Assembly (NCBI GenBank): GCA_006503475.1
Contig: RSEH01000253.1
Location: 1 to 64,000 of the forward strand
Length of the DNA: 64,000 nt
Direction: 5' to 3'
From: Stentor roeselii
Taxonomy: Eukaryota > Ciliophora > Heterotrichea > Heterotrichida > Stentoridae
A program made the translations under genes and the position numbers. How positions within the stretch are numbered: the first letter of the stretch is position 1; the number at the start of each line of letters is the position of its first letter. Positions 3 through 34,014 of the stretch are shown here, piece after piece. The notes under the pieces were generated by a model. The model saw only the letters and a program-made list of their open reading frames with translations, did not search any database and had not been told where the DNA came from.

Positions 3-335
3 TCTGATACTCTCTTTATAATTGAATATAAGAAAGATAAAAAAGGAAATCATATAAATTTAATAAATACAGGAATGATTCAAATAATGGAATTGTACGC
101 TAGTGAAGCTCTAAATATTTCTAGTAAGTATCAACATATAAAAAAAATTATATTGAGAGCTGTTGGTTTTGCTATTGTTGAAGGAAAATGGAAAATGTAT
201 GCTGATGAGATTGAGTTTAATAAAGATGGATTAAAATCAGCGATTGATTGTTTCAATGAGAGAGCTATTGGTGAGGAGCTAATTTTTGATGAGTTGTCCA
301 AATACGCAATCAATAGATTTAGTAGTTTTAAATAG
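3..335 (+). CDS. AAA-ATPase-like / PD-(D/E)XK nuclease family protein, C-terminal part (5' end outside window)
   Basis: The reading frame is open from the left edge to a TAG stop. The 110 visible residues match the C-terminal end of the intact relatives at 2800-4821 and 32008-34014. They start with the nuclease core (SDTLFIIEYKKDKK, giving the Asp and the E-x-K of a PD-(D/E)XK fold), continue with a conserved helix (MELYASEAL) and end in the family tail (DELSKYAINR). The tail differs from the RVSS end of the two intact copies. About 140 bp past the stop lies a short 3' flank block (GGTGTTATA) also found after the copy at 2800. Whether the missing N-terminal ATPase half is intact cannot be seen. 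Confidence 0.8.
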   Translation, partial: SDTLFIIEYKKDKKGNHINLINTGMIQIMELYASEALNISSKYQHIKKIILRAVGFAIVEGKWKMYADEIEFNKDGLKSAIDCFNERAIGEELIFDELSKYAINRFSSFK

Positions 336-1728
336 TTTAAAAATTAGTTTCTTGATTAAATGTCTCATCTATTTGCATTCACTACACAAAACTATCCCTA
401 ACTTTTTTATTATCATGAAAATAATATAATGATGATATAATTGGTTCATATTTTGATTATGATATATTAAAATTTGGTGTTATAGCACTTGCCATCCTTT
501 ATGTATAAAGCCCTATTAAGATAGCTCGCAGATGACAGTAATCAATAAAGAAAAATATAAAAGTAACAACTGAATATAATAAGGAAAAAATAGACTTTTA
601 TCAACAGCAGATTGATAGAAAAAGCTATCAAATATATAAGAATTAGAAAATTTCTGAATTATAAAAGACAAGAAGAAAAAAGGTATTGAATGGATTAGTG
701 AGTTTAAGAAAATCTACACATAAAAAAATTTTATGATTTATTCAATATTCAGATATTTTGTGGATTTGATAATCTTGTGAAAACATCTAAAGTACTTAAA
801 ATAATATGCCAAGTTATAAGGTCTTTTTATATTTGAATAATTTAAATATTATTATTCGCTCATATAATAATTTTTTCACAAGTTCTTTGTATTTTGATTA
901 ACAAAATGATATCCATCGAACAATAGTAAAATGAATTATTATTATTTGAAAAGGATAGAAGGTATGATTTGGAATATATCACTTGAACATTGATTAATGC
1001 AAGATTTGATAGATCTTAATATAGCAAGATAATTCAAGAACTAAGACAGGCTATATTCGATAAATTATCTTATCTTAATAAAAATTAAATAATTAATCAG
1101 ATGGACCCAGAAGATACTTTGCTGGATTTTGATAAACGTATATTTCTTTAAAATTTAATAATAGAGAATGTTGCATTTATATTTCAAATTCTAATAATCA
1201 TATTTTATTACCATATAATCATACGTTCCATTATAAATCTAGGGAAAAGTCGATACTATCAAATTGTATTGAATATATAATATTGAAAAAAAATATACAA
1301 ATCAATTCAATTTGCATGCCAATTTTTGGAGATGAATTCAGTTTAAGGCTTTTTAATTCAATATAAAAACCATTTTGTATCAATTAGTGCAAATTGTTTT
1401 ATAGTGGAAATGATGTAAATGATCATTATTATCGTAGAATCTGCATCCGAAACAAAATATTACCACATCTTAAAATCAACTTACTTTATTAGTGTATCAA
1501 CTGCAAATATTTCAAATTGTCTAAAAGAAACAAAATATGAATTTAAGCTGATTTTATTTATGGAGTATATAATATCAATAGTGGAAATGATAATAAAAGT
1601 ATAATTTAGGGCTTTAATAATATTGAACTTTTTATATATAGACTAAATTTTAAGGATTTAATTACTGCTTTGATATCAAATAGAATAGAGAACTTTATTT
1701 AAGGCTATATGTAAAAATAAAGTATTAA
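336..1728. other. AT-rich stretch without a supported gene
   Basis: No convincing gene. The first 150 bp or so are the conserved 3' flank of the preceding AAA/nuclease copy. At 560-800 and 950-1650 short open pieces read like decayed coding sequence (for example a Lys/Gln-rich helical stretch near 590-700), but stops occur in all frames and I recognise no family. Confidence 0.5.
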
Positions 1729-2075
1729 TTAACTACTAACTTTTTTGAGTGCGTATTTGGACAACTCATCAAAAATATTTTGATTCTCAATGAAACCCTT
1801 CTGAAAAGAAGTAATTGCTGATTTTAATCCCTTTTTCTCAAACTTGAGTTCATCAGCACATATTTTCCATTTTCCTTAAACAAGAAAAAAGGCCACAGCT
1901 TCAGTATAATATTTTTCAAATGATTATACTGAATCGAATCAGAAATCTCCAAAGCTGCTTCTGCTCTACTGTTTGGCAATTTTTAATTTATCAATATTCT
2001 TCATATCGATATTCTTATAATTTATTTCTCTGTCGAATTTGGGGTTGTAGCATTGTGTGAATTATTTCTACTTTT
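1729..2075 (-). pseudogene. Relic of AAA-ATPase-like / PD-(D/E)XK gene, C-terminal end only
   Basis: Read on the minus strand, the piece ends with the family tail (FDELSKYAL, then KKVSS and a TAA) preceded by recognisable blocks such as ADELKFEKKGLKSA and a degraded EYK nuclease motif near 2050. The frame changes at least once within about 110 codons, and no ATPase half is present. It abuts, in opposite orientation, the 5' module of the intact copy at 2800. It is a truncated, inactive family member, probably left by an older insertion or duplication. Confidence 0.75.
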
Positions 2076-2079
2076 GGAA

Positions 2080-2799
2080 TCTATAAGACTTAGTAAAGAA
2101 ATCCATCTCACTTTCGAAGTGAGATGACTATTACCTCTACGAAGATATAGACAGAGTGGTTAAAGATATAACAAATTTTAATTAAAACATGCTTAAAATA
2201 ATCTAATCGTTTGAGAGTGACTCTGAAGAAGATTCGATGAAATAAGGAAGTCAAAGAAGAAATTATAATAAAATGTAATAATCATGGAAGTCTTATAATA
2301 TATGAGAGAGAACATCTGTTGAAATAATCAACGTTAATCTCTATTCTGCAATGTTTCGGTCTAACTTCAAGACCTTTATTCTTCAATCCGATCTATCCGG
2401 CAGGGGTAGTGAACCTTCTGGTAGTAATCTGGCCAGGCCCAGTAGTGTTAAAATCGCGCTCGCCGAATAATTTCATGCGTCCTTTCTGGAGAGTCATTAT
2501 TTAGGTAATTCTGTGCAAGAGTCATCTAAAACAACTCTCCTGGCCTTACAAAAATATTATTTTCTTCATCAGAACTAGTCTTCACAACCCTTGCCAAGTA
2601 ATAAATCAATTCATTAGACTCAAGTTTATCCCAAGTATTTGAAAGAAAAGAAACCCTATAAAACTAATTCCTACTCGAAAAATTCAAATTTAAACCTTTA
2701 ATAGATTCATTAAGAATCAAAAATAAACCATCTTCAGCCCACTTATACCCTTTATACATTCCTACCAAAATCCCCCTTTAATCTCAGCCATTTATATAA
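2080..2799 (+). repeat. Conserved 5' module of the AAA/nuclease unit, copy A
   Basis: This 0.6-0.7 kb leader recurs before the intact gene at 32008 and, inverted, before the decayed copy at 21168-22603. Shared blocks include GAGTGACTCTGAA (near 2210), a segment around AGAGTCATTA...CTCTCCTGGCCTTACA (2490-2550, shared with 31700-31770), CTACTCGAAAA (near 2670) and ATTAAGAATCAAAA just before the gene. A short hairpin with CTCACTT / AAGTGAG arms lies near 2110. Parts look like the decayed 3' end of another acidic coding region, so the module probably contains a promoter plus fossil coding sequence. Confidence 0.65.
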
Positions 2800-4821
2800 A
2801 TGTTTGCCAAGTTCCTCAGAAACTCTACTCTAAAGAAAAAATCGATTTTCTCTAGGAATTTTGCTGAGACTTCAAAAGAATCCTTCTTTTATCTTGGAAG
2901 TGATTTTGAAGAAATACTAAAAGGAGATAAACTATATGCTGATAAGACTTTATTCCTAAAAAATCTCTTGCAAGAACAAGATTTGTTGCTTGCGAGACCA
3001 AGTAGATGGGGAAAGAGTTTAAATTTGAGTATGGTGAAGAACTTTTTTCAACCTTTAGTCTCTGAAGATGGAATCATTTCAAAAGACGAAGAGAAAAAGA
3101 AAAGTTTCGAGAAATTTCTGATAGGTAAAGAAATTCTGTCATATAATCCTATAACTGGGGAAAAAAAAGAAACTAAATTTATTGACCTTCAAGGAAGTGC
3201 ACCTGTGATTTATTTAAGTTTTAATGAAGTTCAACCGAGAAATGAAAAAGAACTTGTTATTATGATTACAAAAATGCTGAAAAAAGCTATTGAACCTCAT
3301 AAGTATCTACTAAAATCACCACATATTAATTCTTATTATTTAAGCTTCATGCAAGATTACTTTAAAGATGATGATAATTTTGATGATATAAAAACAATTT
3401 ATATTCAAAATATATTAATGTATCTTGCAATTTGCTTAGAAAAGCATTATAAAGCAAAAGTTGTTCTTTTAGTAGATGATTACGACAAGTTTCTCGTGTC
3501 TCTCGCTGAGAAGAACTCCAAGTTATACGATGATGGATATTACTTATATTCTCAAATGTTTACATTCCTTAAAGATTCAGCTCGAGGATATATTTTATTT
3601 TCATTATTAACTGGGGTATCTAAAATAATAAACCCAAGCTGCTTCTCTGGCTTAAATCACTTCTTTTATGATACTGTAGAGATGCCTTTCTATTCGGAAT
3701 TTTGCGGGCTTACTGACACAGAAGTCGATAAGATGATTGAACAAACTCAGAATATGATGCAGATAAAATTTGATATCAAAGAAGTCAAAAACCAAATAGC
3801 TAAATGGTACAATGGATACAATATCGAAAATATTAAACTTTATAATCCTTATTCTGTAATCCAGTGCCTAAAACAATTGAGTAATAACAATCCCAATCCT
3901 TATAAAAAATACTGGTCTGATATTAGTTCAAAACTTCTTTACAACTCAGTCGAAATTATACCATCAGGAAAGTTTATTGATCGACTATTAGAAGTAAACA
4001 AAGTTGTATTTACGCCTATCAATTATGTTTTTAAAACATATAATAGTAGTGTTTCTGATGAAGATAAAGAAAAATCAAGTAAAATGGCATTTAGTAATCC
4101 ATCATCATTTTTAACTTTCATGATTCATGCTGGGTATTTAACAGAACATACTAGTTACCAATATCGCATACCAAATAAGGAAATTTTAGAAATCTTTTAC
4201 ACTGAAATCGCACCTTATTGGATGAAAATTAACATGCCATATTTATTGAATGCTAACTATAATGATAAAGAAATAGAAGACATCATATTGTTTTGTTCAT
4301 CATTTCAAAATAAAATTCTGAATAAAATAAAATTAAACGATGACAATACCCCTGAAAAAGTATTCAAATCCTTGATGTACTTCAGTTCTTACAATAAAGA
4401 AAATCATTTAAAGAAATATAAGATACTATTAGATGATCCAACAAATGTCAAAAAAAGAATCAATTTAATTCTTGTCCCATATGAAAATTTTGATACTCTC
4501 ATTATTATTGAATATAAGAAGGATGATAAATTAAATGATAAAATACTCTTGAAAAATGGAATGACTCAAATAATGGAATTTTATGCAAGTGAAGCTTTGA
4601 AGATTTCTGAAACTATTGAGTATAAACATGTAAAAAATATTATCCTTAGAGCAGTTGCTTTTGTTCTTGTTGGAAAAAAATGGAAGATATTCGCTGATGA
4701 GCTTCAGTTTGATAAAGAAGGATTAAAATCAGCGATTGATAGTTTTAATAAGGGTCCTGTTGAGAATCAAGATATTTTTGATGAGTTGTCAAAATACGCA
4801 ATCAAGAGAGTTAGTAGTTAA
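2800..4821 (+). CDS. AAA-ATPase-like protein with C-terminal PD-(D/E)XK nuclease domain, copy A
   Basis: This 673-residue protein has the two-domain layout of the AAA-ATPase-like plus PDDEXK (DUF1703) family, common in bacteria and expanded in some protists and fungi. Visible landmarks: a Walker A-like ARPSRWGKSLNLS near residues 65-77, a Walker B-like VVLLVDDYDKF near 223-233, a TGVSK...FSGLN block near 270-285, a WYNGYN block near 340, and the nuclease core FDTLIIIEYKKD near residues 565-576 followed by MEFYASEAL. The Walker B has DD where the paralogue at 32008 has DE, so ATP hydrolysis may be weakened. The N-terminus (MFAKFLRNST...) is basic, Ser/Thr-rich and free of acidic residues for about 20 residues, resembling a mitochondrial presequence. 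The cellular role is not known; DNA binding or cleavage is inferred from the family. Confidence 0.85.
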   Translation: MFAKFLRNSTLKKKSIFSRNFAETSKESFFYLGSDFEEILKGDKLYADKTLFLKNLLQEQDLLLARPSRWGKSLNLSMVKNFFQPLVSEDGIISKDEEKKKSFEKFLIGKEILSYNPITGEKKETKFIDLQGSAPVIYLSFNEVQPRNEKELVIMITKMLKKAIEPHKYLLKSPHINSYYLSFMQDYFKDDDNFDDIKTIYIQNILMYLAICLEKHYKAKVVLLVDDYDKFLVSLAEKNSKLYDDGYYLYSQMFTFLKDSARGYILFSLLTGVSKIINPSCFSGLNHFFYDTVEMPFYSEFCGLTDTEVDKMIEQTQNMMQIKFDIKEVKNQIAKWYNGYNIENIKLYNPYSVIQCLKQLSNNNPNPYKKYWSDISSKLLYNSVEIIPSGKFIDRLLEVNKVVFTPINYVFKTYNSSVSDEDKEKSSKMAFSNPSSFLTFMIHAGYLTEHTSYQYRIPNKEILEIFYTEIAPYWMKINMPYLLNANYNDKEIEDIILFCSSFQNKILNKIKLNDDNTPEKVFKSLMYFSSYNKENHLKKYKILLDDPTNVKKRINLILVPYENFDTLIIIEYKKDDKLNDKILLKNGMTQIMEFYASEALKISETIEYKHVKNIILRAVAFVLVGKKWKIFADELQFDKEGLKSAIDSFNKGPVENQDIFDELSKYAIKRVSS

Positions 4822-6028: not shown

Positions 6029-7287
6029 ATGCGATATGTTTACTGTCTCTTATTTTTTCAAGTCACTTCACAGTTCCTCCAAATGAGAAACAAGCTCAAC
6101 ATGGCCTATTACGTCACATTAAGTATCGGAAATGATCAAAAAAGTTATTCTCTACTTGTTTCATCTTATTCTTCAGTATTTTTAAATAGCTCTCCTACAT
6201 CCCAGGGCCAGGCTCGCGAGGTTGCAGTGAAGACAAAGAATTCAACTATTCATCTTCAAAAACTTTCGAGATATTAAACGAAAATTACTATCAAAACGTA
6301 AAAAACACTTAGTATGCAATAGGAAATGCTTCAGGTGTACTAGGTAGAGACCAGTTTCGTTCATCAGCGAAAGAATTTTATTTGATTCCTTCTCAAGCAA
6401 TACTTGTAGGAAAGACTTCAAATCTTCCAGATAATGCCAGATGTGGAATATTTTCATTAGGACTGAATTCGTATCAGACAAACTTCTCGGTGGTTTTTAA
6501 TTTGTACTCTTTGGGAAGAATCGAAGATTTATCTTTTTCTTTGTTTCTTAATAACATTGGGTTTGAAGGGAAGGATAAATACGAGATCCCAAGCACGATT
6601 GTATTAGGAACCTATTTTATGGCAAAATATGCAAAAGACCCGACATCAACTTTTAGGTATCATAATATAGCAGCTGAGCATCCTTATTTATGGGCAGTAA
6701 CAGCTTCTAGTTTCTCTTTGGGTTCTTATGTCGTATCGAATACCTCCGAGCCAATGATCTTAGAGCCTTCATTTAGTTTTATTGCAATACCAGAGTCAAT
6801 TCTCAAGAAGTTTAAAGAAAAACTAAACAAAAAAATAATATGTTCTGACAATGGAACATTTCTAATCTGCCCTTGTGAAGAAAGTTTCAAGCTACCAAGT
6901 TTATATTTTGTGATCGACAAGTATGAATACTCTCTTCCAGCCTCTTTTTACGTAAAAAAAGAAGAAGATAGATGTGTTATCTGTGTTATTCCCAAAGACG
7001 CCTCACCCTGGATACTCGGACAGTTATTCCTAAGAAGATATTACAGTTACTACAACATGAGAACAAGACAAATCGGTTTAGTTGAAAGTATTTATTACGA
7101 ATCATCTCATCACCACAAGAACAGCAAAAAGATCAGTGATGAGTGGCTAATGACCATCATCGGCATCACTACCTTTGTAGTTGTCGGCTTTATAGTCACT
7201 TTATGTTGGTTTTACATGAAGCATAAACGACCCCTGAGGTACTCAGTACTCAGCAGTGACTCTGACTTTGTAATCACTGGTAAATAG
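6029..7287 (+). CDS. Membrane-anchored pepsin-like aspartyl protease homologue, predicted inactive
   Basis: Three exons (6029-6175, 6190-6297, 6313-7287) give 409 residues, the usual size for a pepsin-like protein with a tail anchor. The N-terminus is a short hydrophobic leader. The first lobe shows YYVTLSIGNDQKSYSLLV, then SSYSS exactly where the catalytic DTGSS should be, then LSYIPGPGSRGC, the usual position of LWVPG. After the second intron comes YAIGNASGVLGRDQF, the normal flap-region pattern. The second site reads ILEPSFSFIAIP where (V/L)DSGTSLI..P is expected. The end is canonical (WILGQLFLRRYY..., then IGLV), followed by a transmembrane helix (IIGITTFVVVGFIVTLCWFY) and a short basic tail. 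Both catalytic aspartates are missing, so it is probably a non-catalytic surface or lysosomal protein. Its stop lies 17 bp before the next gene. Confidence 0.85.
6176..6189 (+). other. Apparent 14-nt spliceosomal intron
   Basis: GTATTTTTAAATAG starts with GTA and ends with TAG. Removing it joins two frames that are each clearly aspartyl-protease-like (...SSYSS / LSYIPGPG...). Without removal the first frame runs on to a stop at 6275-6277 and the homology is lost. The length of 14 is unusual for a genome whose other introns here are 15; the T-run of five could have lost one T in the assembly. Confidence 0.7.
6298..6312 (+). other. 15-nt intron in the aspartyl-protease-like gene
   Basis: GTAAAAAACACTTAG lies between codons for ...NENYYQN and YAIGNASG..., in phase 0. 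If retained it adds an in-frame TAG. Its removal restores a continuous pepsin-family flap region. Confidence 0.85.
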
Positions 7288-7304
7288 AATAGTTTGTTAT
7301 ACTA

Positions 7305-7616: not shown

Positions 7617-7745
7617 TCGTTTATTAAATGTGGCGTAGAGATTTTTAGTTGGTTGATGTGGGTGAATAGAACGGATTAGAATAATTTTAGGGATTTAGGA
7701 GGTTTTATAGTGAATTTAGTTTTAATCATCATCAAACTATTAGAT

Positions 7746-8699
7746 TTAAAAAACAGGGCATTGTTCTTCGAAGGTTTTATCTGCTATAAACTTGTCTATT
7801 GAAGGCTTTCTAGATATTTTTAGTCCTGCTATTTTTTTGAGAAGGCCGCCAATAGAATCTTCATACTTCTCTTTCACCTTGACCAAATCAGCCCTAATCT
7901 CCTGTACATTAGGAACAACATCATCCTCTAATTCAGGTGAAAAGCACTGAGGCACAAAATCAACAGCACCTTCAACAACCCCTTCAACAACATCATTTTC
8001 CCCCCCTTCCGCTTCCCTAACCTCCCTAATAACAGTAGAATACTCTTCAGGAAAAGAAACCCTTTCAATAGTTCCACTCTGCACAAGTTTCACATCATTT
8101 TTATACCCCGTTGCATTTTCAATATCACTATTTCCAATAAATTCTGTATAACTTTGAGGTTCTTTCTGCTTAAAACAAGCAAGTCTAACCTGTGAATACA
8201 TCCATTTAAACAAGAACTGTTTTTTGTAGTACTTTTCAATGATAGGCTTCATAACTTTAAACAAACGCCTGACAAATCTGGACTCGGCTCCAAATCTAGC
8301 AGCAGTGATCATGACACAAACAAAAATAATCAACTTGTTGATTTGACGAGATTCGACCCAGGCTTCATGTGCGGGTCCGGCCGGGTCATAGCTTTTTTCA
8401 GCAGGAATCAAAATATTGAAAGAAGAGTCGAAATATTCAATCAAGATGTAACCGACGTACGTTATTCCAAAGTCAGTTTTAAAGCTGTCTACATAACTTG
8501 CTTCGAATAATGCACTGTCTGAAGATAGTTTTCCATTCGCCTTTGCCACGTATTCACCGTCTTTATGCTCGAATTTGAAGACCTGGCTTGAAAGGTCGAG
8601 TGAGTAGAGGTTTTTTACTTTTGCTAAGGAAAAAGTGAGAAGGTCGTTTAGTGTCTGTGAGTCTGAGACTGGGATTGAGGTGTCCAGGGTGTTAAGCAT
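7746..8699 (-). CDS. Single-pass membrane protein ending in a CaaX-like box, unknown function
   Basis: 317 residues. One hydrophobic helix (INKLIIFVCVMITAARF, near residues 120-136) is followed by a basic stretch (RFVRRLFKVMKP). The C-terminal half is acidic and probably disordered, with a helical segment before the end. The last four residues are CPVF, which fits a prenylation CaaX box; a CaaX protease gene lies about 11 kb away on the same strand. No family is recognised. The start is fixed by a micro-duplication: an identical ATG context 59 bp upstream opens only a short upstream frame (see the repeat at 8672-8783). Confidence 0.7.
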   Translation of the reverse strand: MLNTLDTSIPVSDSQTLNDLLTFSLAKVKNLYSLDLSSQVFKFEHKDGEYVAKANGKLSSDSALFEASYVDSFKTDFGITYVGYILIEYFDSSFNILIPAEKSYDPAGPAHEAWVESRQINKLIIFVCVMITAARFGAESRFVRRLFKVMKPIIEKYYKKQFLFKWMYSQVRLACFKQKEPQSYTEFIGNSDIENATGYKNDVKLVQSGTIERVSFPEEYSTVIREVREAEGGENDVVEGVVEGAVDFVPQCFSPELEDDVVPNVQEIRADLVKVKEKYEDSIGGLLKKIAGLKISRKPSIDKFIADKTFEEQCPVF

Positions 8700-8783
8700 T
8701 TATATTAAGAATTTTTACAATAAAATAAGGAAATTGAGGTTTCCAGGGTGTTAAGCATTTATATTAAAATTTTTACAATAAAA
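8672..8783. repeat. Tandem micro-duplication (about 53 bp, two copies) between two genes
   Basis: Two nearly identical blocks (8672-8724 and 8731-8783) contain TCCAGGGTGTTAAGCATTTA and TTTTTACAATAAAAT, differing by a base or two. The upstream copy, as read on the minus strand, holds the stop of the pseudokinase gene; the downstream copy holds the ATG of the 317-residue gene. The duplicated ATG in the first copy (8756-8758) opens a 17-codon frame whose first five codons repeat those of the real gene (MLNTL) and which ends 7 nt before the real ATG. Confidence 0.85.
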
Positions 8784-10356
8784 TCAACGACCTTGACAAC
8801 TTGCTCGACTTTTCCAAACCGCTTTTCTTTGAATTGGGAAGAGTTCTACGCGACCTGGACGAGTGAAGCGGCGGCAGATTCAAAGGTGCAAGGGGATACC
8901 TCAGGTAGAAATTATGAAGTATAGACAAGAACCCCTCATAAGAAAGAGAAAATTCACTTGCCATCTCACTATCAAAAACTTGAACTAAAGACTGTTCAAT
9001 ACAAATATTCAAATTTTCTTGTTCTTTTATCAAATTTCTCAATATTTCCTTATAAATCTCAGGAAAATCTGCAAGACTCAGTAAAAAACAACTAAAAACA
9101 TTGATTGACTTGTAAAAACTCAAAATTTTTCCCAATATTTCCAAATCTTGAGTCTCGATTTCCTGCCAAGGGACATTAAACCTACTACAAAACTCATGCC
9201 GGGTCTTTAACAATGAGCAATATTTCAATATCACATCTTGTGAAGTCGATGAAAAGTATTTCTGCAGTTTTTCATTCAGGGTGTTAGTCCAAAGCGATTC
9301 AGTTTTCACAATAAAACTCACACAATGCAAGGAATTTCCTATTAACCCACTCTGATTCATGTAAAGATGAAGAAGCGCCAAACTTTTCAAACAAACTTTC
9401 GGACGATTCAAGTCAATTTCAAACAAACTTGAAAAAAACTTTTCAATTTTTTTTGGTTTTTTTTTTGCTTTTGTCAGAAGCCGATCAATGAAAATCTTTG
9501 AAAAACTTGAGTCTTTATCTTCTGTTAATTTTTTCACCCATGACCTGGTCGAGGTTTTCAATTTGTTTAAAAGTGACATGCCTTCTTGTTTCACTTCTCC
9601 GCAACTTAAAAAGCAGAGAAGGTCTTGACTCGTGGCTCTTTTTTGAGGATTTTCGACGAAGACTTTATCTAAAAAAGTATTCCAGTAAATGTTTGGAAGT
9701 TTTAAATTTTCTCGGCTTCTGATAAGTCTTGGCTCTGGCTTTGTGAGGATTTCGTAAACTATCCACCCCAATGCCCAGATGTCGACTTGGGTGGTTATTG
9801 GAAGGCCTAGAGTCAGGTCTTTGACTTCTGGAGACATGATCTCCGAAAAGATGCTGGATTCTAGGTCTTCTGTTAGAAGGACTCCGTATAGGTCTTCTAG
9901 GGACTTTAGAGATACTGATGACTCGAGACCTCCGAATTTCACGTTGAAATAATCGTCTATGAAAATGTGCTCGGGTAATAAGTTTCGGTGGACTATTTGC
10001 TTTTTGTGAAGTTTGTCTAAACTCATGACAATATTCGTTATCAAACGTTTTTGAGTGGAATTAGAAAGACTTTTGATTATAGAATTAATTGGTCTTAACC
10101 CACTGATATCAAATAAAAGTTGTCCGAATGTTGAATTTTTTTTCGAATCCAATAGTTTTAAAAGACATCCAGTGTCTTTAAGAGAAAAGTAAGATGAAAG
10201 TTCTCGTTCATATGAAATTGAAGAGGATGGAAACTGAAATCTTTTCAAGAGAAGTTTTCTTCCTTTAACATCTAATGTGAAATAGTTGACGGATAATGAG
10301 TTCCAAGTTTGATAAGGCAAGAGAGTGATTTCAGGGTTGATGTCTTCTAAGTCCAT
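8773..10356 (-). CDS. NAK/AAK1-like pseudokinase fused to an ENTH/ANTH-like domain
   Basis: 527 residues. Residues 20-250 are a protein-kinase fold: LLLKRF carries the ATP lysine (K38), the catalytic loop reads IVHRNLLPEHIFID (HRD changed to HRN, the usual Lys lost), the DFG site reads GLE, and MSPEV plus TQVDIWALGWIVYEIL give the APE and subdomain IX motifs. The segment ITTQVDIWALG resembles Numb-associated (AAK1/GAK/BIKE) kinases, which act in clathrin endocytosis. Without the HRD and DFG aspartates catalysis is unlikely. Residues about 280-400 (SKIFIDRLL...PKVCLKSLALLHLYMNQSG) resemble the helical ENTH/ANTH domain, although this match is by eye. The tail is basic and Ser-rich. The role would be an endocytic scaffold. 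It starts 26 bp after the stop of the upstream coiled-coil gene on the same strand. Confidence 0.7.
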   Translation of the reverse strand: MDLEDINPEITLLPYQTWNSLSVNYFTLDVKGRKLLLKRFQFPSSSISYERELSSYFSLKDTGCLLKLLDSKKNSTFGQLLFDISGLRPINSIIKSLSNSTQKRLITNIVMSLDKLHKKQIVHRNLLPEHIFIDDYFNVKFGGLESSVSLKSLEDLYGVLLTEDLESSIFSEIMSPEVKDLTLGLPITTQVDIWALGWIVYEILTKPEPRLIRSRENLKLPNIYWNTFLDKVFVENPQKRATSQDLLCFLSCGEVKQEGMSLLNKLKTSTRSWVKKLTEDKDSSFSKIFIDRLLTKAKKKPKKIEKFFSSLFEIDLNRPKVCLKSLALLHLYMNQSGLIGNSLHCVSFIVKTESLWTNTLNEKLQKYFSSTSQDVILKYCSLLKTRHEFCSRFNVPWQEIETQDLEILGKILSFYKSINVFSCFLLSLADFPEIYKEILRNLIKEQENLNICIEQSLVQVFDSEMASEFSLSYEGFLSILHNFYLRYPLAPLNLPPLHSSRSRRTLPNSKKSGLEKSSKLSRSLILL

Positions 10357-11691: not shown

Positions 11692-12645
11692 TCAATTCTT
11701 CATAGTTTCATTGATATTATCAGTACTCGACTGTTCCTTTCGACTTCCTTTAGAACAAAAAGAATCACTAGGCACAACCCGATTAAACCCTCTAAGATTA
11801 ACATCATTTCCTTCAAAACTCGCTTTAAACTGAGGATTTTCCATATAAGGTTCATAAACCTCTTCAAGCGGCACTTCCTCCACAATTTCCCTTTCATTAA
11901 TAACCTTAACACTTGGAATTTTATACTGTTCCGACTTTTTCCTTTTACTTAAAATATACTCATAAGTCGTGATTCCCTTAAAAGCAAGAAAAACATGAAA
12001 CCCGATAAGTTGAATCATAGCAAAAGCGGCCAAAGCACTCATAATTTCCATGAAAATCAAAACACTAACATAAAACTTGAACCCTCCTTCAGTATATCTA
12101 ATCATTTCACAGAAGTTCTCAAAAATTCTTCCTTTATTTAATAATCCTTCTAAAGTAAACCCTCCAGTAATCAAAATAATCAAGTTATGCATCTGAAAAG
12201 ACAAAAGAAGAACGCTGTAATGACGATAGTTCTTCCGACCGATGCAGTTATTCAGCCATTTACAGTGATGGTCGAAGTGAAGTACGCATCGATTACATTC
12301 TCTGCAGTGTTTTGTGTCTAGATTCACGTGATTCTTGCAAATTTTACAGATTTTTGGGTATTTTTTGTAGTCAAGAGGCTTTCTAGGTAATGATTACGAA
12401 AGGATCGTGGCTTGAAGAGATTCTTTTAATGCTGGGTCTGTCGGGTCTGCAGCAGTGCAAAAGAACCCTGAAAGTATCACTAAAAATAAAGATAATGCAT
12501 AAAGAATTGAAACGATTATCTTGGGTTTACGGTCAAGTAAAGGAATCACCATGAAGGCAAACATGCTAAACAAAATAATAACATAAACCCAAGAGACTAC
12601 TTGAAGTTTATGAAAAGGTCTTTTAAATCCATTTTTCCTTATCAT
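11692..12645 (-). CDS. DHHC-type protein S-palmitoyltransferase
   Basis: Two exons (12398-12645 and 11692-12382) encode 312 residues. It transfers palmitate from acyl-CoA to cysteines of membrane-associated proteins. Four hydrophobic segments are visible: VVSWVYVIILFSMFAFMV, IIVSILYALSLFLVILSGFF, a third after the catalytic domain and a fourth near ALAAFAMIQLIGFHVFLAF. The cysteine-rich domain is complete only after splicing: ICKICKNHVNLDTKHC, then CNRCVLHFDHHCKWLNNC. The catalytic DHHC is intact, and a TTxE-type motif (GITTYEYIL) follows TM4. The C-terminal tail is cytoplasmic. It ends with TGA, the only TGA stop in the window. Likely an endomembrane enzyme; targets unknown. Confidence 0.93.
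12383..12397 (-). other. 15-nt intron in the DHHC gene
   Basis: GTAATCATTACCTAG on the minus strand, phase 2. Its removal joins the TM2 exon to KPLDYKKYPKICKIC... of the cysteine-rich domain. If retained it adds TAA at once. Confidence 0.92.
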
Positions 12646-14059: not shown

Positions 14060-14290
14060 GGAATAATGAGTGAAATTTAGAGGATTGGGGGGAAAAAAGG
14101 AGTTTTAGGGCGGAAGAAGAATGAATTTTAGAGGATTGGGGGAAAATAGGGTGTTAGGGTTGAAAAAGAATGAATTTTAGAGGATTGGGTGGAAAAAGAA
14201 TGAATTTTAGAGGGTAGGGTGTTAAAAAGGGTTTTAGGGTGGAAAAAAGAGTGAATTTTAGAGGCTAGGGTGTTAAAATGAATTTTAGGT
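14060..14290. repeat. G-rich degenerate minisatellite with telomere-like motifs
   Basis: At least five imperfect units built on GAATTTTAGAGGATTGGG(T/G)GGAAAAA fill the gap between the TBC promoter and the next gene's 3' end. Within them TAGGGTGTTAGGGTT (near 14150) and two TAGGGTGTTA (near 14215 and 14265) resemble the G-rich strand of a TGTTAGGG-type telomere repeat, the kind I recall for heterotrichs. There is no perfect telomere array, so this may be chance in G/T-rich DNA. Confidence 0.6.
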
Positions 14291-14308
14291 TATGGATTTT
14301 AAAAGATG

Positions 14309-21167: not shown

Positions 21168-22603
21168 TAACTAAAACTCTTTTTTAGCGGGTTTTTGGAT
21201 AACTGATCAAAAATATCTTTTTCTTATTAGCACCCTTCTTAAACTATTAATTGTTGGTTTTAATCCTTCATTATTGAACTGGAGCTGATCAGCACATATT
21301 TTCAATTTTCCTAAAAAGAACAAAGCCGAAGCTCTCAGGATAATTTTTTATATGATTATTATCATTAGAAATCTCGAGAGCTATTCCATTCTTCATGGGT
21401 GCTTTATCACTTAATTTATAATCTATCTTATATTCAATTACAGAGAGTATCCGAATTTATTTAGTAAAGAGCTTCATTAATTTTTTTTTTCATTTGTTGA
21501 TCTTTCAAAAGTACCTGTGCTTGTTAAAAATTCCATTTTATGGAATGAAGTGCTGCTAGGATCTGAATAAAAATTCAATGAGATTTTTATTTGCTTTTAC
21601 AATTTCATCGAGAATTTTTTTGAGATAAGGAGCAAAACAATGAGTTCTTTGTAAGAAATAGTAGGCTAAAGAAGCCCCTATCCATCCAATAAATTTCTTT
21701 TCAATCATTTTTTGAATTTTTTTAATTATCTGATCAACTTCTGTATCATTAGCCCGTAGAATTCAGAATAAAAAGGTTTCTCTACTGAATCATTGATTAA
21801 GTTATTAAGACTAGAGAGTTTTTGTTTTTCTGCACTTTTAACCCTGCAAACCATGAAAATTGAACATCATTTTTAATTATTTCTTTAAGATATGAAAACA
21901 TTTCTGAATATAAATACAATCCATAATTGTAAAATTCAGAGTTGCTCTCAGCAAGAGACATAAAAATTTATGATATTCATCCACTAAAAGGACAATTTTA
22001 CTTCATACTGCTTTTTAAATATTTTCTTAGATAACCCAATGTGTTTATAATCATAAATTCGTTTAGACTGCAGAACTTATCATCTTTAAACTATTTTGTA
22101 GTATAATTACATCATCAGAATCAATCTTTCGTGATTTCAGTAAATACTTATGAGTTTGAATGGCTGTTTTAAGTATGATTTCTAAAAAAATTCAAAGTAT
22201 GTTTTACTTTCTAGCATATCATCAGTAAACATCAATTTAATCACAGGTAGACTTCGTGAAAGGTAATAATTTTTTCTTTTGTTACAGGAAGAATTTCATT
22301 ACCATTTCAAAGTTTTCTTTTTGTCTCTTGAAATGATTCCATCTTCAAGACCAGGATCTTAAAAAATCTCTGAACTATCCTCAAATTTAATCTTTTCCTA
22401 ATTTCTTGATCTCATAACCAAATGTTTTTTCTTCCAAGAGAGATATAAGGAATAGAGTCTTATAGGCATATACTTGATTTTCATCTAGTAAATCGTTAAA
22501 CTCACTGCCAAGATAAAACAAGTATTTTTCTTGAATCTCAGTAAAATTCTTATAGAAAATCGATTTGAATAAAGCAAGAGTTTTTGAGTACCCTGGAAAA
22601 CAT
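21168..22603 (-). pseudogene. Nearly full-length decayed AAA-ATPase-like / PD-(D/E)XK gene
   Basis: On the minus strand this begins with the same ATG context as the intact copies (ATCTCAGCCATATATGTAAATG) and ends with a degraded copy of the C-terminal tail. Recognisable pieces in order: SLEEKTFG-like lead to a destroyed Walker A site, LEDGIISRDK, a Walker B-like LLVDEYHKF, the FYGL...EVDQ block, a nuclease remnant (SVIEYK) and ADQLQFNNEGLK. The length is about 1.44 kb against 2.0 kb for intact copies, so internal deletions exist, and many stops and frame changes are present. It carries the same 5' module (22604-23110), so the whole unit was duplicated before it decayed. Confidence 0.88.
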
Positions 22604-26087: not shown

Positions 26088-29000
26088 ATGAAAGAGAAGC
26101 TAGCCCGTATATCCTTTTGGATCTGCATTTCCATAGGCATCATCCTAATCTTCCTAGGCATAGTAGTACCTCTATTCATAACCGGCCTCGTAAACGACCG
26201 ACTAGAAGATTTATGGTTGAAGCCAGACAAGCACAAATACTGGGGCGAGTTGCCAGGAGAATACAACATAAAGTTAAAAACAACTTTCCGTCTCTTCAAC
26301 TTTTCAAACCTGGAAGCTTTTCTAAACAACTCCAAAGCCAACTTGACCGAGTTGCCCCCAGCGACGTTTGAAGAACATTCAAATATGTTTAACTGGAGTT
26401 ATTTAGACGACAATCTTAAAGACCTCGGACAAGACGACCCAGGCGATTTCGTGGCTTACAATCAAAAAACCAACCTCGTGCCAGTTCCAAGTGATTCAGT
26501 TACAGTCCCCGGGTCAGCTCCAGTGACGTCTGTGAATTACCTGACATACGTGACTTTTTACCAATTATCTCACAGCCCTCCTCCAATATACATGATTCCT
26601 ACCATGTATGAAGTAGTCCAAGCCTTAGAAAACGACTTTTACGTCATGATTCTCGCTTATGTCAGTTGGAAAAGTAACATCAGTGACTTTAACTTTACTA
26701 GAAATTATCTTGAATCACAAGGCTTTGACCCTGACCAGATCATGGATGATGAAGAATACTCTTGGGCTGCTTGGGAAAATTTAAAGCCCTGGGTTCAAAG
26801 CTTGTTGGATTTGAAAAATAATGGTTTAAGTAATTCTTTTGAGAATATTCAGATGAGGTTTCAAATGGAGGGACTTGTGGAATTGATTTCTGAAGGAAGT
26901 TTGTTGTTTGAACTTGTGATGGAGATTCAAAGTGATATGGTGAAAAGATATGGAAGTAATGACCCGAAGTTTATTGGAGATCTTCAGTGGGCTACTGGGA
27001 AAGTTACGTTGGACTTGCCTTTGGGACTTGGAGTTCTTAGTATTCCTGGATCTATTGTTCCTTTTCCGTCTTTTGTCATGATGAATAAGACCTTTGGGAC
27101 TGTTCCTGAAGAGTACTTTTTACAACTGGCAAAAGGGGTTAATAGTCCTTTGTTTTTGAAGAATGTTTCGAAGTTACTTGAGATTTCTTATGAGTACCCC
27201 AGGACTAACACTGGAAGTTTCTTGTATTTGAATAATTTAATCGCACTTTTTAATGATACTGAAAAAGCGAAGGAAATTTTCGGTTTTGACGACCAGCAAG
27301 TGACAATTGCTCAGACTTACCTCGGGTCTTTAATTAACTTTAAAGTCCCTGAGCATAACGTGACTATTGATAAATACTCTTTGACTCTAGCGAAACTTGC
27401 AGGGAGTTCTTTCGTAAGCAACACAATCAATTTAAGAAACGATGCTTATTGGTCAGTCCCAACTGTCATAGTCTTTAAAAACTTCTCAGATGAGAATATT
27501 TCATGTGAAGAGTGGGTTTCTAATGTGAACTCTTCATTAAAATCCGTTTGTAGTTCGAACTTTGGATGGAACATCTCGACGAAAGCTTGGTGGTCGATAG
27601 AGATCTGGGTAAAGGCAGCTTTTAAAGGGTCTAAAAGTCTTGAATTCAAGACTTTAAAAGAAGTGATCCCTGAACCTGCATTGAACAGTCTTTTGTTTCA
27701 GAATAATCCGAATATCTCGCAATTGGCGCAAGAAGCTTTAGAGCTTACTTCAAAGGTTTATATATGTGCTCGGAATATCTGCAATTATGAAGAACTTTTT
27801 TATCTTCAGTGGGGAGGGTCTTTCATCACTTCAGGACCTCCGAGTGACTTGGCTGATTATATCAACTCGTCGAATACTATGAAAACTTGGCTTCCTTTGA
27901 AGTACTCAGTGCCTATTGAATGGTCGAATTATAGTCCTTTACTTATTTATCCTGCTGCTTTTAAGATTTTGAATTATACAACTTTTTTGAGTTCAGGGGT
28001 TATTAGACTCTTCTTGAATTCTTATTTTCAGGGAAATCTTTCTGCTACTGCTAAGATGTTTAAACTTCCGAATGAGGCATATGTAGAAGGACTTTACAAT
28101 TATTTCCTGAAAATCATACCTGGTCTCAATTTCTTCACAACAAGGAGCTACTCAAGCTGGGTATCAGGATATCGAGATGAATTCCCTACCTATATGGCTA
28201 ATCTCGGTATATACCACGGTGGTCTTCCCAGTGTAAACACTGCAATGGCTGCTGCAGCCAATCAGACTGACAAAGGAAAGCCGCGTCATATTGTGAGATC
28301 AGGCAGACTAGACACTGGAGAAACGAAATTTATTTACAAGTATTACAACAGTCGACAAATAAAAAGATATAGGCAGGTCTACGATGAAACCACCAGTGAT
28401 ATGAAAAAATGGGTTTATGAGGATATATGGGCAGAACCTATTAATTATACGGGAGGAATCGGGGGATCTTTTGGAACAAGGATCAATAATGATGATATTC
28501 TTTCTGTTTACTTGCAGGCAGTCATGAGAGATGTCAATTTGACTTATGATAAGGATGTTAGCTATCATGGACTTACTCTTTCTAGATTTCTTCCTGATAA
28601 GAATGACTTGAAAACTTCTGATAAAGTTCCTGGTAATGCGAAATACTTTCAATTACCTCATGGGTTTGATGGGTTTATGAATATTTCGGCGGAGTATGGA
28701 TGTCCTTTTTTTGTGAGCTTTAGTAGGTGTTATCAATGTGAAAGTGATGCTTTGGAGATGTTTGATAGGTTTGAATATGTTGATGTCGGGAAATCAGGAA
28801 AAAAAATAAATCCCAGTCCATCCGATTCTCCATACGCAGAGTTAGAGCCTTTATCAGGAACCGGAATCCGAGTTCGTCTAAACATAGAATTACGTATCGG
28901 TTTTTACAACGACTACTTTTTCAAGAACTTTTACGAGCCAGTTCCAGGAAAAGGAGTCTATTTCCCAATCTACATCCTAGAGCGTAAAATAGCATTAACC

Positions 29001-29225
29001 GATCATCAAGTGAATGAGTTCTTCGGTAGGTTTAAACTAGCTCAACGGGCAAGAAGAAACGTATTTTTAGGAGGAATAATCGGTGGTTCTTTTTTCTTCG
29101 TCTTTGCCTTCATCAGCGCAGTGTTTATCTACAAGACGAATAATTACATGAGCTGGGGCGAGCGACGAAACACGCTGATCAAGCATTATATCAGCATGGC
29201 TGAAGGGAATGATTTCGGTAAGTAA
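26088..29225 (+). CDS. Giant CD36/LIMP-2-like scavenger receptor, copy 1
   Basis: 1,045 residues, about twice the usual 470-500 of the CD36 family. The topology is that of CD36: a transmembrane helix at each end ([20 protein letters not shown] near residues 9-28, and [20 protein letters not shown] near 1003-1022) with a large extracellular or lumenal region rich in N-glycosylation sites. Family-like traits are the entry [12 protein letters not shown], then FRLFNFSN in the place of the Phe-N-(V/I)-T-N strand, and near the end [20 protein letters not shown] and YFPIYILE, matching the CD36 pattern (ieP.tG......Q.N... and fPv.wl.E). A Cys pair (RCYQC) lies near 880. Role: lipid or particle uptake is plausible, inferred from the family only. 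A paralogue is at 59145-62306. Confidence 0.65.
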
Positions 29226-29230
29226 TAATA

Positions 29231-30890: not shown

Positions 30891-31260
30891 TTGAGTTAAA
30901 GCCTGTTTTGGATACTAACCTATTATTTATTATGCTTGTTTGAAGTGTATTCAAGTTTTATGATGCACTCTATAAGTTACAGGTAATATCAGGAAATTAA
31001 AAAAATTTAACAATAACTTTTGATATGATTAACAAGCGAGAATCTTATCAATAAATTTTCTTCTAGTCTCTTGAAATGAAATATTTAATTTAATTAATCC
31101 TCAGCTACTCAAAAGTAAAACAATTGTTTATTGAAAACCTTCTGAATCAAAAAATCCTGAAATAAGGATCTTTAAATAGCTCCAAAATAAAAATTTAAAT
31201 TTAGCATATTTTAATGAAATCTCGAAAGATTACTTTGATCTAGATTCACAGGTTCAAAGA
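30891..31260. other. AT-rich spacer, no gene seen
   Basis: No open frame of note and no recognised repeat between the MGC relic and the next 5' module. Confidence 0.45.
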
Positions 31261-32007
31261 TCTTCTGTATTCTAAGAATAAAAGTTTTGCAAGGCTTGGA
31301 GACACAACTTTTGGGTCTGTCTCAGAGACCAAAAATTTCAAAGTAATATTTATATCGATGAAGAGGGTAGGTAAAAATAGGAAAAAAGTTCAATGAAAGC
31401 ATGCTGAGAATGATTCACATGCTCGAGAGTGACTCTGAAAAGCATATTGATAAAATAAGGTCAGAATAGACCTATATAATAATGGCAGTCAGATTGTTTA
31501 AGAGAGAAAACATCTTAATTAATCAACCTTAGTTTTAATTTCGCAGTGTTTCGGCCTTATTTGAGACCCGTTTGATCATCGCTAGGTTGAGTTTGTAGGA
31601 AGCTGCTGGTGGGCGGTGCACCTTTTGAAAGAAATCCATTGGGTTAGGAGTGTTTCATTCGCTTGCCAAATTAGTTTGTACTTCTTTCTGAAAAGAGTCA
31701 TTAGTTGGGTATTTCTGCGCGAGAGCCTTCTAAGACTACTCTCCTAGCCTTACATCGAAAAAATAGACCTTTACATATAAACTAGACATCGCAATCCGAG
31801 TCCGATCAAAAATCCATTCATGTAACTTAGGTTGATGTACCAAATTATCTAAAAAAACAGAAAAATCATTTGTTTAAGCTCTACTCGAAAATTGAAATTA
31901 CTTTAATCAGATTCATTAAGAATCAAAATTTAATATTTCAACACTTTATACCTTTTATCTTTTCCTAATCCTACCATTTTCCCATTTAATCTCAGCCGTA
32001 TATATAA
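31261..32007 (+). repeat. Conserved 5' module of the AAA/nuclease unit, copy B
   Basis: Blocks shared with 2080-2799 and 22604-23110 in the same order: GAGAGTGACTCTGAAAAG (near 31424), GAGAGAAAACATC (near 31505), AGAGTCATTAGTTGGGTA (near 31700), CTCTCCTAGCCTTACA (31740-31755), AAAAACAGAAAAATCATTTG (near 31855), TCATTAAGAATCAAAA and TTTAATCTCAGCC just before the gene. A short inverted repeat (GGTCT / AGACC) occurs near 31315. No promoter element can be named. Confidence 0.65.
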
Positions 32008-34014
32008 ATGTTTGCCAGGGTCCTTAGAAACTCTGAACTAAATGCAAAATCGATTCTTTATAGGAATTTTACTGAAACTTCATTCAAAAACTTGTTTTAT
32101 CTTGGAAGTGAGTTTAACGATATACTAGAAGGAAATAAAGTGTATGCTGATAAGACTCTATTCCTTAAATCTTTCTTGGAAGAGAAATATTTGTTGGTTA
32201 CGAGACCGAGAAGATCGGGGAAAAGTTTAAATTTGAGTATGGTCGAAAGATTCTTTCAGCCTTTAGTCTCTGAAGATGGAATCATTTCAAGGGACGAAGA
32301 GAAAAAGGAAAACTTTCAGAAATTTGAGATAAATAAGGAAACTCTTCCTTACAATCCTATAACAAATGAAAAACAAGAAACAAAATTTATTGACCTTCAA
32401 GGAAGTCTACCTGTGATTAAATTAATTATTACTGATGCTAGACCAGAAAGTAAAAGACACCTTGAAATTTATTTAGCAAGCGTACTTCAAACAGCCATTC
32501 GACCTCATAAGTATCTACTTAAATCACCAAAGGTAGATCCTGATGATAAAATTATATTAAAAAATTACTTTAAAAATGATAAGTTCGATAATCTCTACGA
32601 TATTATGATTATAAACACTTTAGCTACTCTTATAAGGTGCTTAAAAGCGCATTATGGAACTAAAGTTGTACTTTTAGTCGATGAGTATGACAAGTTCCTG
32701 ATATCTCTCGCTTTACAAAACTCTGAGTTTTATGGACATGGGTTGAACCTATATTCCGAGATTTTTCTATGCCTTAAAGGCATAATTGAAAACGACGTTC
32801 AATTCTCGTTATTTACAGGAGTATCAAGAGCAGCCAAGATAAACTCTCTATCTGGTCTCAATTGTTTCTTTCATGATTCTGTAGAGAAATCTTTATTTTC
32901 GGAATTTTACGGCCTAACTGAAACAGAAGTTGATAAAATGATTGAACAGTCTCAGATGATTATGAAAGAGAAATTCGATTTCGAAAAAGTTAAAAAACAA
33001 ATAATAAAATATTATAACGGATACAATATACAAGGCAAGACAATATATAATGCTTATTCTGTAATAAATTGCCTAAATTTTTTGACGAAAAATGATCCCG
33101 ATCCTTATTCAGCATACTGGTCTAATAGTGGCTCAACAGAACTTCTTTATAACTCAGTCCAACATTTACCTACAACAAAATTTCTTGATTATCTAAATGA
33201 AAAAAACTCGATTACCTTTGCCCCTATTAATTATGTTTTTAATGAAATAAGTGATGGTGATGAAAAAAATATAAATATTTTCAGTAAAACTGTATTTAAA
33301 GACTCTGATTCATTTTTGACTTTAATGATGGATGCTGGGTATTTAACAAAAGTGACTGATAATGAATATCGCTTACCTAATAAAGAAATTTTTGAAAACT
33401 TTCACAACCAAATCGGACCTCAATGGTTGAAAATTAGAATGCCATATTTACCTAATGCTTCATATGTCGATCAAGAAATAGAAGACATCAAAACGTTTTG
33501 TTCATCATTTCAAATAAAAATTCTGGATAAAATCATAATAGATGATACCCTTGAAAATATATTCAAATCTTTACTGTACTTCAGTTCTTACAATTCAATA
33601 AATCGTTTAGAAAAGTACAGAGTATTCTTGGAACATTCAACAGAACAAAAAAAAAAGATCTATATGGCTCTTTTACCAAATGAAAATTCGGATACTCTTT
33701 TTATCATTGAATATAAAAATGATTACAATTTAAGTAATACAGTACAAATTAACAATGAAATGCTTCGAATAATGGAATTGTATGCTAGTGAAGCTATAAG
33801 GATTTGTAATGAGTATCAAAATATAAAAAAAATTATCATGAGAGCTGTTGCTTTTGTTATTGTCGAAGGTAAATGGAGAATTTTTGCTGAAGAGGTTCAG
33901 TTTAGTGAAGAAGGATTGAAATCAGCGATTGATAGTTTCAATAAAGGTGAGATTGACGAGGAAGATTTTATTAATGGATTATCGAAATACGCAATCAAGA
34001 GAGTTAGTAGTTAA
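32008..34014 (+). CDS. AAA-ATPase-like protein with C-terminal PD-(D/E)XK nuclease domain, copy B
   Basis: 668 residues, collinear with copy A (2800-4821). Landmarks: Walker A-like TRPRRSGKSLNLS near residues 65-77, the shared VSEDGIISRDEEK, Walker B VVLLVDEYDKFL with the normal Asp-Glu, FTGVSRAAKINSLSGLN, YYNGYN, and the nuclease core SDTLFIIEYKND with MELYASEAI. All expected ATPase and nuclease residues visible to me are present, so this is the best candidate for an active member. The N-terminus MFARVLRNS...SILYRNF is again a basic leader like a mitochondrial presequence. It ends KYAIKRVSS like copy A. The biological role is unknown; relatives in other genomes are usually multicopy. Confidence 0.87.
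   Translation: MFARVLRNSELNAKSILYRNFTETSFKNLFYLGSEFNDILEGNKVYADKTLFLKSFLEEKYLLVTRPRRSGKSLNLSMVERFFQPLVSEDGIISRDEEKKENFQKFEINKETLPYNPITNEKQETKFIDLQGSLPVIKLIITDARPESKRHLEIYLASVLQTAIRPHKYLLKSPKVDPDDKIILKNYFKNDKFDNLYDIMIINTLATLIRCLKAHYGTKVVLLVDEYDKFLISLALQNSEFYGHGLNLYSEIFLCLKGIIENDVQFSLFTGVSRAAKINSLSGLNCFFHDSVEKSLFSEFYGLTETEVDKMIEQSQMIMKEKFDFEKVKKQIIKYYNGYNIQGKTIYNAYSVINCLNFLTKNDPDPYSAYWSNSGSTELLYNSVQHLPTTKFLDYLNEKNSITFAPINYVFNEISDGDEKNINIFSKTVFKDSDSFLTLMMDAGYLTKVTDNEYRLPNKEIFENFHNQIGPQWLKIRMPYLPNASYVDQEIEDIKTFCSSFQIKILDKIIIDDTLENIFKSLLYFSSYNSINRLEKYRVFLEHSTEQKKKIYMALLPNENSDTLFIIEYKNDYNLSNTVQINNEMLRIMELYASEAIRICNEYQNIKKIIMRAVAFVIVEGKWRIFAEEVQFSEEGLKSAIDSFNKGEIDEEDFINGLSKYAIKRVSS

Follow-up and report, generated by a model that had tools for sequence, protein, structure and literature searches.

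Five places in a 64,000-nucleotide stretch of the Stentor roeselii genome (contig RSEH01000253.1, positions 1 to 64,000, hereafter the window; contig C176, or G000:C176, in our numbering) match one family of genes that join an AAA+ ATPase to a PD-(D/E)XK nuclease domain. We propose, with a probability of roughly 55%, that this is a bacterial-type ATP-driven nuclease family of the ciliate nucleus that has been retargeted to mitochondria and is kept under birth-and-death with both live and dead paralogs. At the level of sequence, the members are homologous to prokaryotic DUF1703 proteins, form one ciliate group, share a leader and an element at the start codon, carry co-duplicated flanks and have repeatedly changed their nuclease residues, and their long frames stay open at moderate divergence.

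Window copies and prokaryotic relatives

A sequence-only reading of the window had named five copies, and tblastn with the copy 1 protein found that all five places match one protein family (6-326, against query residues 565-673; 1732-1905 on the minus strand; 2800-4818; 21836-22099 and 22087-22569, both minus, with more pieces down to 21179; and 32008-34011). The relic that it had placed at 1729-2075 (minus) matches the family for 1729-1964, and its decayed copy at 21168-22603 (minus) matches in pieces. The two copies that it had called intact do have open frames, of 673 and 668 amino acids, but neither has a complete PD-(D/E)XK site, with the motif-II aspartate replaced by Asn in copy 1 and by Tyr in copy 2. 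Both orientations, which it had also reported, recur among tblastn matches on many contigs. The Pfam profile PF09820 matched copy 1 (E 3.7e-28, 99.1 bits) and copy 2 (E 2.4e-26, 93.2 bits) against a Pfam cut-off of 26.1, while PDDEXK_9 (PF08011) matched neither copy at E 0.001. The copies and their parts are as follows.

2800..4821, plus strand: copy 1, an open frame of 673 amino acids with an AAA-ATPase_like domain and a PD-(D/E)XK-like C-terminus (tblastn, Pfam, alignment)
2785..2802, plus strand: start-site element of copy 1, the family-element variant CAGCCATTTATATAAATG, whose last three bases are the ATG
2800..2886, plus strand: leader of copy 1, residues 1-29, resembling a mitochondrial import signal
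2995..3018, plus strand: Walker A of copy 1, RPSRWGKS
3466..3489, plus strand: Walker B of copy 1, LLVDDYDK
4453..4524, plus strand: PD-(D/E)XK motifs of copy 1, KRINLILV (Asp lost, Asn instead) to IIIEYKKD
32008..34014, plus strand: copy 2, an open frame of 668 amino acids (tblastn, Pfam, alignment, structure model)
31993..32010, plus strand: start-site element of copy 2, CAGCCGTATATATAAATG, whose last three bases are the ATG
32008..32094, plus strand: leader of copy 2, residues 1-29 (model confidence below 50 for residues 1-27)
32203..32226, plus strand: Walker A of copy 2, RPRRSGKS
32671..32694, plus strand: Walker B of copy 2, LLVDEYDK
33652..33723, plus strand: PD-(D/E)XK motifs of copy 2, KKIYMALL (Asp lost, Tyr instead) to FIIEYKND
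3..335, plus strand: edge copy truncated at the contig start, of which the C-terminal 110 codons remain (64% identical to residues 565-673)
1729..1964, minus strand: relic, the C-terminal end of a family copy with a damaged frame (tblastn, translated comparison)
21168..22603, minus strand: decayed family copy with many stops (tblastn, translated comparison)

Across the whole assembly (44.4 Mb, 522 contigs), tblastn with copy 1 located at least 65 family places, and a second census with the PF09820 profile located at least 46, of which 45 exceed the Pfam cut-off and each of which overlaps a tblastn place. Both counts are lower bounds, and the family first noticed in the window is a large one. 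Its copies cluster on contigs C144, C158, C379 and C476. Among 18 aligned members scanned, PF09820 was found in all 18 (best E 2.1e-32) and PF08011 in 8 at E up to 1 (best 1.3e-11), while the PF09820 profile had no match in 14 named prokaryotic control genomes.

When prokaryotic genomes and viral contigs were searched, the closest relatives found were prokaryotic DUF1703 proteins, which combine an AAA+ ATPase with a PD-(D/E)XK nuclease. At least 562 prokaryotic relatives were confirmed in the genome scan, the best 80 of which were kept, and the four scanned for domains all carried both PF09820 and PF08011. According to the account of DUF1703 proteins in PMC1913061 (Knizewski et al. 2007), the likeness extends to the domain order, an RPRR(F/W)GK(S/T) Walker A, a DEYD Walker B and, in part of the members, the PD-(D/E)XK motifs. 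The members that it describes are bacterial plus one archaeal, whereas the ciliate family is nuclear, has a leader and a start-site element and frequently shows a changed triad.

We built a tree of 72 rows, comprising 27 ciliate pieces longer than 550 amino acids and 45 prokaryotic or viral-contig rows picked for spread. A branch of length 1.42 with 100/100 support sets the 27 ciliate rows apart from all the others, in an unrooted tree that contains two very long branches and nine rows with odd letter composition. This supports the ciliate family as one group relative to the sampled prokaryotes. The best matches among the relatives kept came from Alphaproteobacteria, Rickettsia endosymbionts and Firmicutes, none of them standing out as the donor, and a transfer, its direction and its donor are matters that we infer from these comparisons. 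An origin from a virus or phage was considered and rejected: a first scan of viral contigs was empty, and an alignment scan yielded eight loci at 28% identity or less, of which the four placed in the tree all fall among prokaryotic rows.

Two observations concern individual copies. The open frames of two C158 paralogs (L020, 3680-5635, and L116) begin at the identical residues GLHVDKS, which fits either a shared upstream stop or a different start. On contig C70, a family relic (L010, 2153-2414) lies next to an open copy, about 2.2 kb from a telomere.

Leader, start-site element and active sites

A basic leader of about 25-30 residues was present on 23 of the 23 N-termini measured, which are those of the 26 first-set pieces that fit the start pattern, and most prokaryotic relatives are without it; MFNWITRNMISSVKAIRKRFSTD, which lies N-terminal to the domain in a C476 copy (L016), is an example. 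In all 23, a conserved DK motif lies 45-53 residues in. Among the 83 of 88 relatives that had a usable ATG, taking the first ATG of the frame, this motif lies at position 34 or earlier in 71 and at 21-28 in 61, with 5 at position 45 or later. The mean charge of the first 24 residues was +3.70 in the family, +0.28 in the relatives and +0.59 in 17 other window genes, and the same residues held on average 0.96, 3.55 and 2.29 acidic residues, respectively. Seven later copies (L112-L115, L117-L119), which stand outside these counts, have similar leaders by eye. In the same genome, Hsp60 begins with MLSRISSTFSRSLIRSFGA and ATP-synthase beta with MVMRSLSRVFSNPVSRFFSEA, so that both mitochondrial proteins looked at have leaders of a similar kind. 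Because of this resemblance, import into mitochondria is likely, and we consider it probable that the leader is a mitochondrial presequence and that the proteins work in the mitochondrion.

Upstream of 30 copies, conservation lies in about the last 15 bases before the ATG, with a mean of 1.1 bits per base over the last ten positions compared to 0.1-0.2 beyond about -50, in a naive alignment that misplaced at least two rows (L114, L115). The element CAGNCATNTTTATAATG has 24 exact matches in the genome; 23 stand directly before a family copy, as assigned by hand to the tblastn places, and the 24th lies 5 bases from a contig end. Of a further 26 matches with one mismatch, 10 were assigned to copies or relics and 16 were without assignment, and a control with the reversed pattern gave 3 matches at up to one mismatch. 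In the window copies, the element is a variant not captured by the exact CAGNCATNTTTATAATG pattern. Since the spacing from element to ATG differs by one base between clades, and a stop codon directly precedes the ATG in the window clade, the signal resides in DNA and not in protein. A stricter form of the element was found at none of 20 other window genes. Both the leader and the start element are common to paralogs merely about 31-38% identical to copy 1. We read the element as a putative family-specific start-site promoter.

The nuclease triad of Asp, Glu and Lys was intact in 13 of the 27 ciliate rows versus 45 of the 45 other tree rows (Fisher p 6.7e-8, a test that treats related rows as independent), and in the whole alignment it was intact in 76 of 76 prokaryotic or viral-contig rows. 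It is changed in copies 1 (NEK) and 2 (YEK) and in 12 other ciliate rows, two of which (L014, L017) are near-copies. When an Asp-to-Glu change is counted as tolerated, 12 of the 27 are still altered. At least nine changes are required on the tree, and the triad-live and triad-dead copies do not split into two clades. The ATPase residues were altered in 6 of 26 ciliate rows versus 2 of 45 others (p 0.045, under the same assumption of independent rows), namely copy 1, C33, C119, C17, C20 and one C158 copy. In copy 1, Asn thus replaces the catalytic Asp and DDYD replaces DEYD; in copy 2, Tyr replaces the catalytic Asp and the scored ATPase residues are the usual ones; and the active sites of their C88 relative (L001) are intact. 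Copies that are intact by frame length can therefore have lost catalytic residues, and the members described here are DUF1703 relatives by their sequences, not all of them potential nucleases.

To gauge selection on open copies, which the sequence-only reading had left as a check, dN/dS (the ratio of nonsynonymous to synonymous substitution rates) was estimated by NG86. The estimates were 0.35-0.60 in all 15 pairs, at dS 0.19-0.70; the pairs were chosen and some include partial frames. C33 and C119, whose ATPase and nuclease sites are both altered, keep frames of 670 and 679 amino acids at a dN/dS of 0.57. Some copies are broken by a single nonsense codon.

Proposed function and competing explanations

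If the family has been retargeted as we propose, the leader would direct import into mitochondria and the AAA+ domain would assemble rings, with ATP driving the engagement of nucleic acid. We put about even odds on AAA+ rings using ATP on nucleic acid in this way, with the nuclease-competent, triad-intact paralogs cutting mitochondrial or invading DNA. More tentatively, paralogs with an altered triad may be retained, and so tune activity, as competitors or within mixed rings, where their role would be non-cutting, regulatory or dampening. Fast turnover would suit conflict inside the organelle, over surplus, damaged or foreign DNA, mitochondrial plasmids or bacterial symbionts. A stronger version, which we regard as unlikely, is a fast-turnover set of nuclear-encoded, ATP-driven nucleases that have a start-site promoter of their own and are imported into mitochondria. 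There, live and dead paralogs would co-assemble or oppose each other, so that the ciliate would police its mitochondrial DNA or a selfish copy would attack it; if true, a bacterial ATPase-nuclease would have been turned into an organelle-level immune or drive system.

We modeled copy 2 with AlphaFold2 from an alignment with copy 1 and 29 prokaryotic or viral-contig relatives, which gave a mean predicted local distance difference test score (pLDDT) of 73, a predicted template modeling (TM) score of 0.68 and a confidence below 50 for residues 1-27. The Foldseek list against the PDB contained AAA+ and RecA-like ATPases and PD-(D/E)XK restriction enzymes, all weak. It was led by the RdrA ring of RADAR (8hr8; E 7e-3, TM 0.18), an AAA+ ring ATPase of the kind proposed for the family, whose match is likewise weak, and it included EcoRV, HincII and BsaXI entries, none at E under 0.04. 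In a library of viral models, a Sylvanvirus protein matched over 507 columns (E 7e-6) and a Pithovirus ATPase domain protein matched at 1e-3. A phmmer search of copy 2 against PDB sequences gave weak Hsp90 matches alone (best E 0.01), and RdrA was not listed.

Several results weigh against the proposed retargeted nuclease family. With regard to fold, Foldseek of the copy 2 model against the PDB found nothing at E below 0.001, and TM by query length was at most 0.22 among the 50 rows shown. With regard to the leader, three of the 26 first-set pieces begin inside the domain; the hydrophobic moment gives no separation (family mean 0.48 versus 0.43 in relatives); cytosolic CCT is also at charge +3; and a loose R-x-F-S-like site pattern, which matched 16 of the 23 members, 2 of the 83 relatives and 3 of the 17 other window genes, was picked after viewing the family. 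Leader dN/dS also exceeds 1.2 in three pairs, over just 29-34 codons. With regard to the start element, one member (C251, L004) is without the TTTATA core, and the short core TTTATAATG stands exactly at the start codon of a midasin-like gene (47174-47182, minus strand; one among the 20 other window genes), which leaves the longer element alone as family-specific. Finally, the six rows with altered ATPase residues weaken a dead nuclease with a live ATPase in those members, and mixed rings rest on general AAA+ biology.

A known expansion of DUF1703 proteins offers a partial parallel. In the account given in PMC6387759, the Cardinium cCpun expansion is likewise lineage-specific, with 25 paralogs of mean 39% identity and reported recombination; Cardinium cCpun, however, is a bacterial symbiont in which 10 of the 25 have predicted signal peptides, whereas the family described here is eukaryotic, has an organelle-type leader and shows triad changes. 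The literature found on DUF1703 proteins, as far as its accessible text goes, reports no tested function, and among the titles and opening abstract lines returned by full-text searches there was no mitochondria-targeted DUF1703 family of a ciliate, which is no proof of absence given that most subscription papers lie outside that scope. A eukaryote that kept, amplified and apparently retargeted a DUF1703 protein to mitochondria offers a natural experiment. With leader, start element and live or dead active sites readable from sequence, a function in mitochondrial DNA control, organelle defence or drive is directly testable in the ciliate, and if import is true, the family would add a case of a bacterial-type ATPase-nuclease re-used in an organelle of bacterial descent.

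Among the alternatives, defence of the cell or organelle against invaders such as viruses, plasmids and endosymbiont DNA, akin to bacterial ATPase-nuclease immunity, survives best, unlikely as we consider it. AAA+ plus restriction-type nuclease relatives, fast evolution and clustering would all suit it, and PMC10952713 lists PF09820 for RADAR (RdrA), PARIS 1 and Old-tin. However, PADLOC-DB 2.0.0 models matched none of five proteins (2 ciliate, 3 prokaryotic), and the leader points into the organelle.

A poison-antidote or drive system appears rather improbable. Here, intact copies would harm the mitochondria of progeny or mates, dead copies would act as antidotes or blockers, and an arms race would account for the turnover. 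The changed triad residues in 14 of the 27 rows, with the many separate changes on the tree, are in keeping with this, as is the DUF1703 protein of bacterial origin reported from the Tribolium Medea selfish factor, as summarized in PMC6387759 (citing Lorenzen 2008). Medea and the present family share a bacterial-type DUF1703 protein in a eukaryote, but Medea is a selfish factor and the ciliate family is known from its sequences. The absence of two separate clades of dead and live copies argues against this reading.

We also find it doubtful that these are ordinary dispersed paralogs drifting to death with no common function left. Relics are many, some copies carry a single nonsense codon and nuclease residues are changed in those same 14 rows, all of which drift would predict. 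On the other hand, long frames are open at the dS values given above with dN/dS below 1 in every chosen pair, the doubly altered C33 and C119 included, and leader and start element are kept by distant paralogs.

Flanks, mode of spread and neighboring features

Two further window features bear on how the copies spread.

2153..2799, plus strand: 5' flank of copy 1 in common with the flank of copy 2 (31364-32007; blastn)
34581..35260, plus strand: downstream segment with an open reading frame (ORF) at 34715-35224, also present in the flank of the C88 copy, where the ORF is broken, a sign of segmental duplication

A blastn alignment of copies 1 and 2 runs from -647/-644 to +81/+91 relative to the gene, with 71.7% identity over 2807 columns. 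The sequence-only reading had described a 5' module common to three copies and a 3' flank of about 250 bp common to at least three. The 5' module holds for copies 1 and 2 (about 0.64 kb), but the alignment of the 21-23 kb relic reaches only about -195 to -235, with weaker similarity beyond. The 3' claim is not borne out, as blastn gives only copy 2 with the C88 copy (about 257-265 bp); in the other pairs of the window clade the common 3' flank can be absent and reaches at most about 140 bp, between copy 1 and the 21-23 kb relic. The C88 copy, the nearest intact relative, has about 275-290 bp of 5' flank in common with either window copy. It is 85.8% identical to copy 2, with a common 279-288 bp 5' and 257-265 bp 3', and after about 310 bp found in the window only, similarity resumes at 80.6% over window positions 34581-35260.

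Of the 231 pairs formed by 22 copies, 19 could be aligned from gene to gene with an identity of at least 72%. In these, the shared flank extends for 81-868 bp on the 5' side and about 0-1221 bp on the 3' side, some of the extents being limited by contig ends. Single clades show similar 5' extents (840-868 bp for all three C476 pairs; 523-767 bp for all six L006-L009 pairs), and on that account element ends that differ from clade to clade are conceivable. One pair on C144 (C144:63 and C144:11845) shares 98.6% identity through the gene and out to -84, beyond which the two differ.

No transposase, integrase or reverse-transcriptase model was found among the family members scanned, in which only PF09820 and PF08011 scored strongly, and in agreement with the sequence-only reading no transposase model matched the other window proteins scanned either. 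No target-site duplication was seen, the copy ends being too vague to search for one. A mobile or selfish 3-kb DNA unit, in which gene and flanks move as one element with defined ends, is thus very improbable: both orientations on many contigs, the 0.64 kb shared by copies 1 and 2 and the like 5' extents within some clades would suit it, but the extents vary among the 19 pairs, a neighboring ORF was co-duplicated, close relatives often cluster on one contig and the members scanned lack mobility models. The birth-and-death of a multigene family that had also been proposed is supported by the range from open frames to relics, the clusters and the single-nonsense copies. Together, these observations fit duplication, some exchange and decay, as judged from aligned copies, rather than insertion of a defined unit.

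A coding 5' module was also sought and rejected: translated pieces of the AT-rich islands, compared with the window and loci L001-L018 and L020, returned relics, flank matches and the broken downstream ORF. In L007, a 1.5-kb segment (1881-3395) with a long minus-strand open frame, presumably related to an axonemal radial-spoke protein, separates family flank segments that in L006 stand almost side by side.

Contig ends also bear on the copies. Both ends of C393 lie in copies (L118, L119) that are 88% identical over the last 300 bases, with the last 77 nucleotides exact. At 88% identity such a run has a probability of about 5e-5 per site, yet a contig end selects for such a run, which makes this one suggestive of recent exchange without amounting to a test. 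A length of 77 is a usual assembler word length, and we read the C393 pair as an assembly-graph break at a stretch identical in two copies. By hand count, 6 of 1044 contig ends fall within copies (C176, C286, both ends of C393, C144 and C379), and two more lie at the very start of a copy (C368, C25); against a rough expectation of 2.2, P is 0.023 for 6 and 0.002 for 8. The assembly probably lacks parts of some copies.

Contig C70 begins with CACCCTAA repeats. The seven-fold repeat has 221 exact genome matches, and among the matches listed, forward ones lie in the first 80 contig bases and reverse ones at high coordinates. Stretches of 15 nucleotides with the form GTAA...TAG interrupt two conserved window genes, one an Asp protease (6298-6312) and the other (12383-12397, minus strand) a gene that we take to be DHHC-like by its motif. 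A pattern count of 15-nucleotide introns was not above chance, and the two introns were read within conserved genes instead. For the heterotrich Blepharisma, PMC9942806 describes CCCTAACA repeats, introns predominantly of 15-16 bp and UGA as Trp, and about 95% of heterotrich introns are given as 15 bp in PMC11441545. We take the assembly for a heterotrich-ciliate macronuclear genome, apparently without the UGA-as-Trp reading. An alternative genetic code was rejected, as table 6 gives most window genes only slight extra length, and TGA as Trp looks unlikely with 187 TGG codons in 35 family frames, though these frames exclude TGA by construction.

Elsewhere in the window, G-rich repeats with copy spacings of 49 and 81 bp lie between two genes (14065-14291), and a 59-bp direct tandem duplication (8674-8791, 80% identical) spans the start of the minus-strand ORF at 7746-8699. 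Two long proteins (26088-29225 and 59145-62432; 1045 and 1088 amino acids as scanned) each have a C-terminal CD36-family domain and a large extra N-terminal part, and their DNA is 66-68% identical in two stretches.

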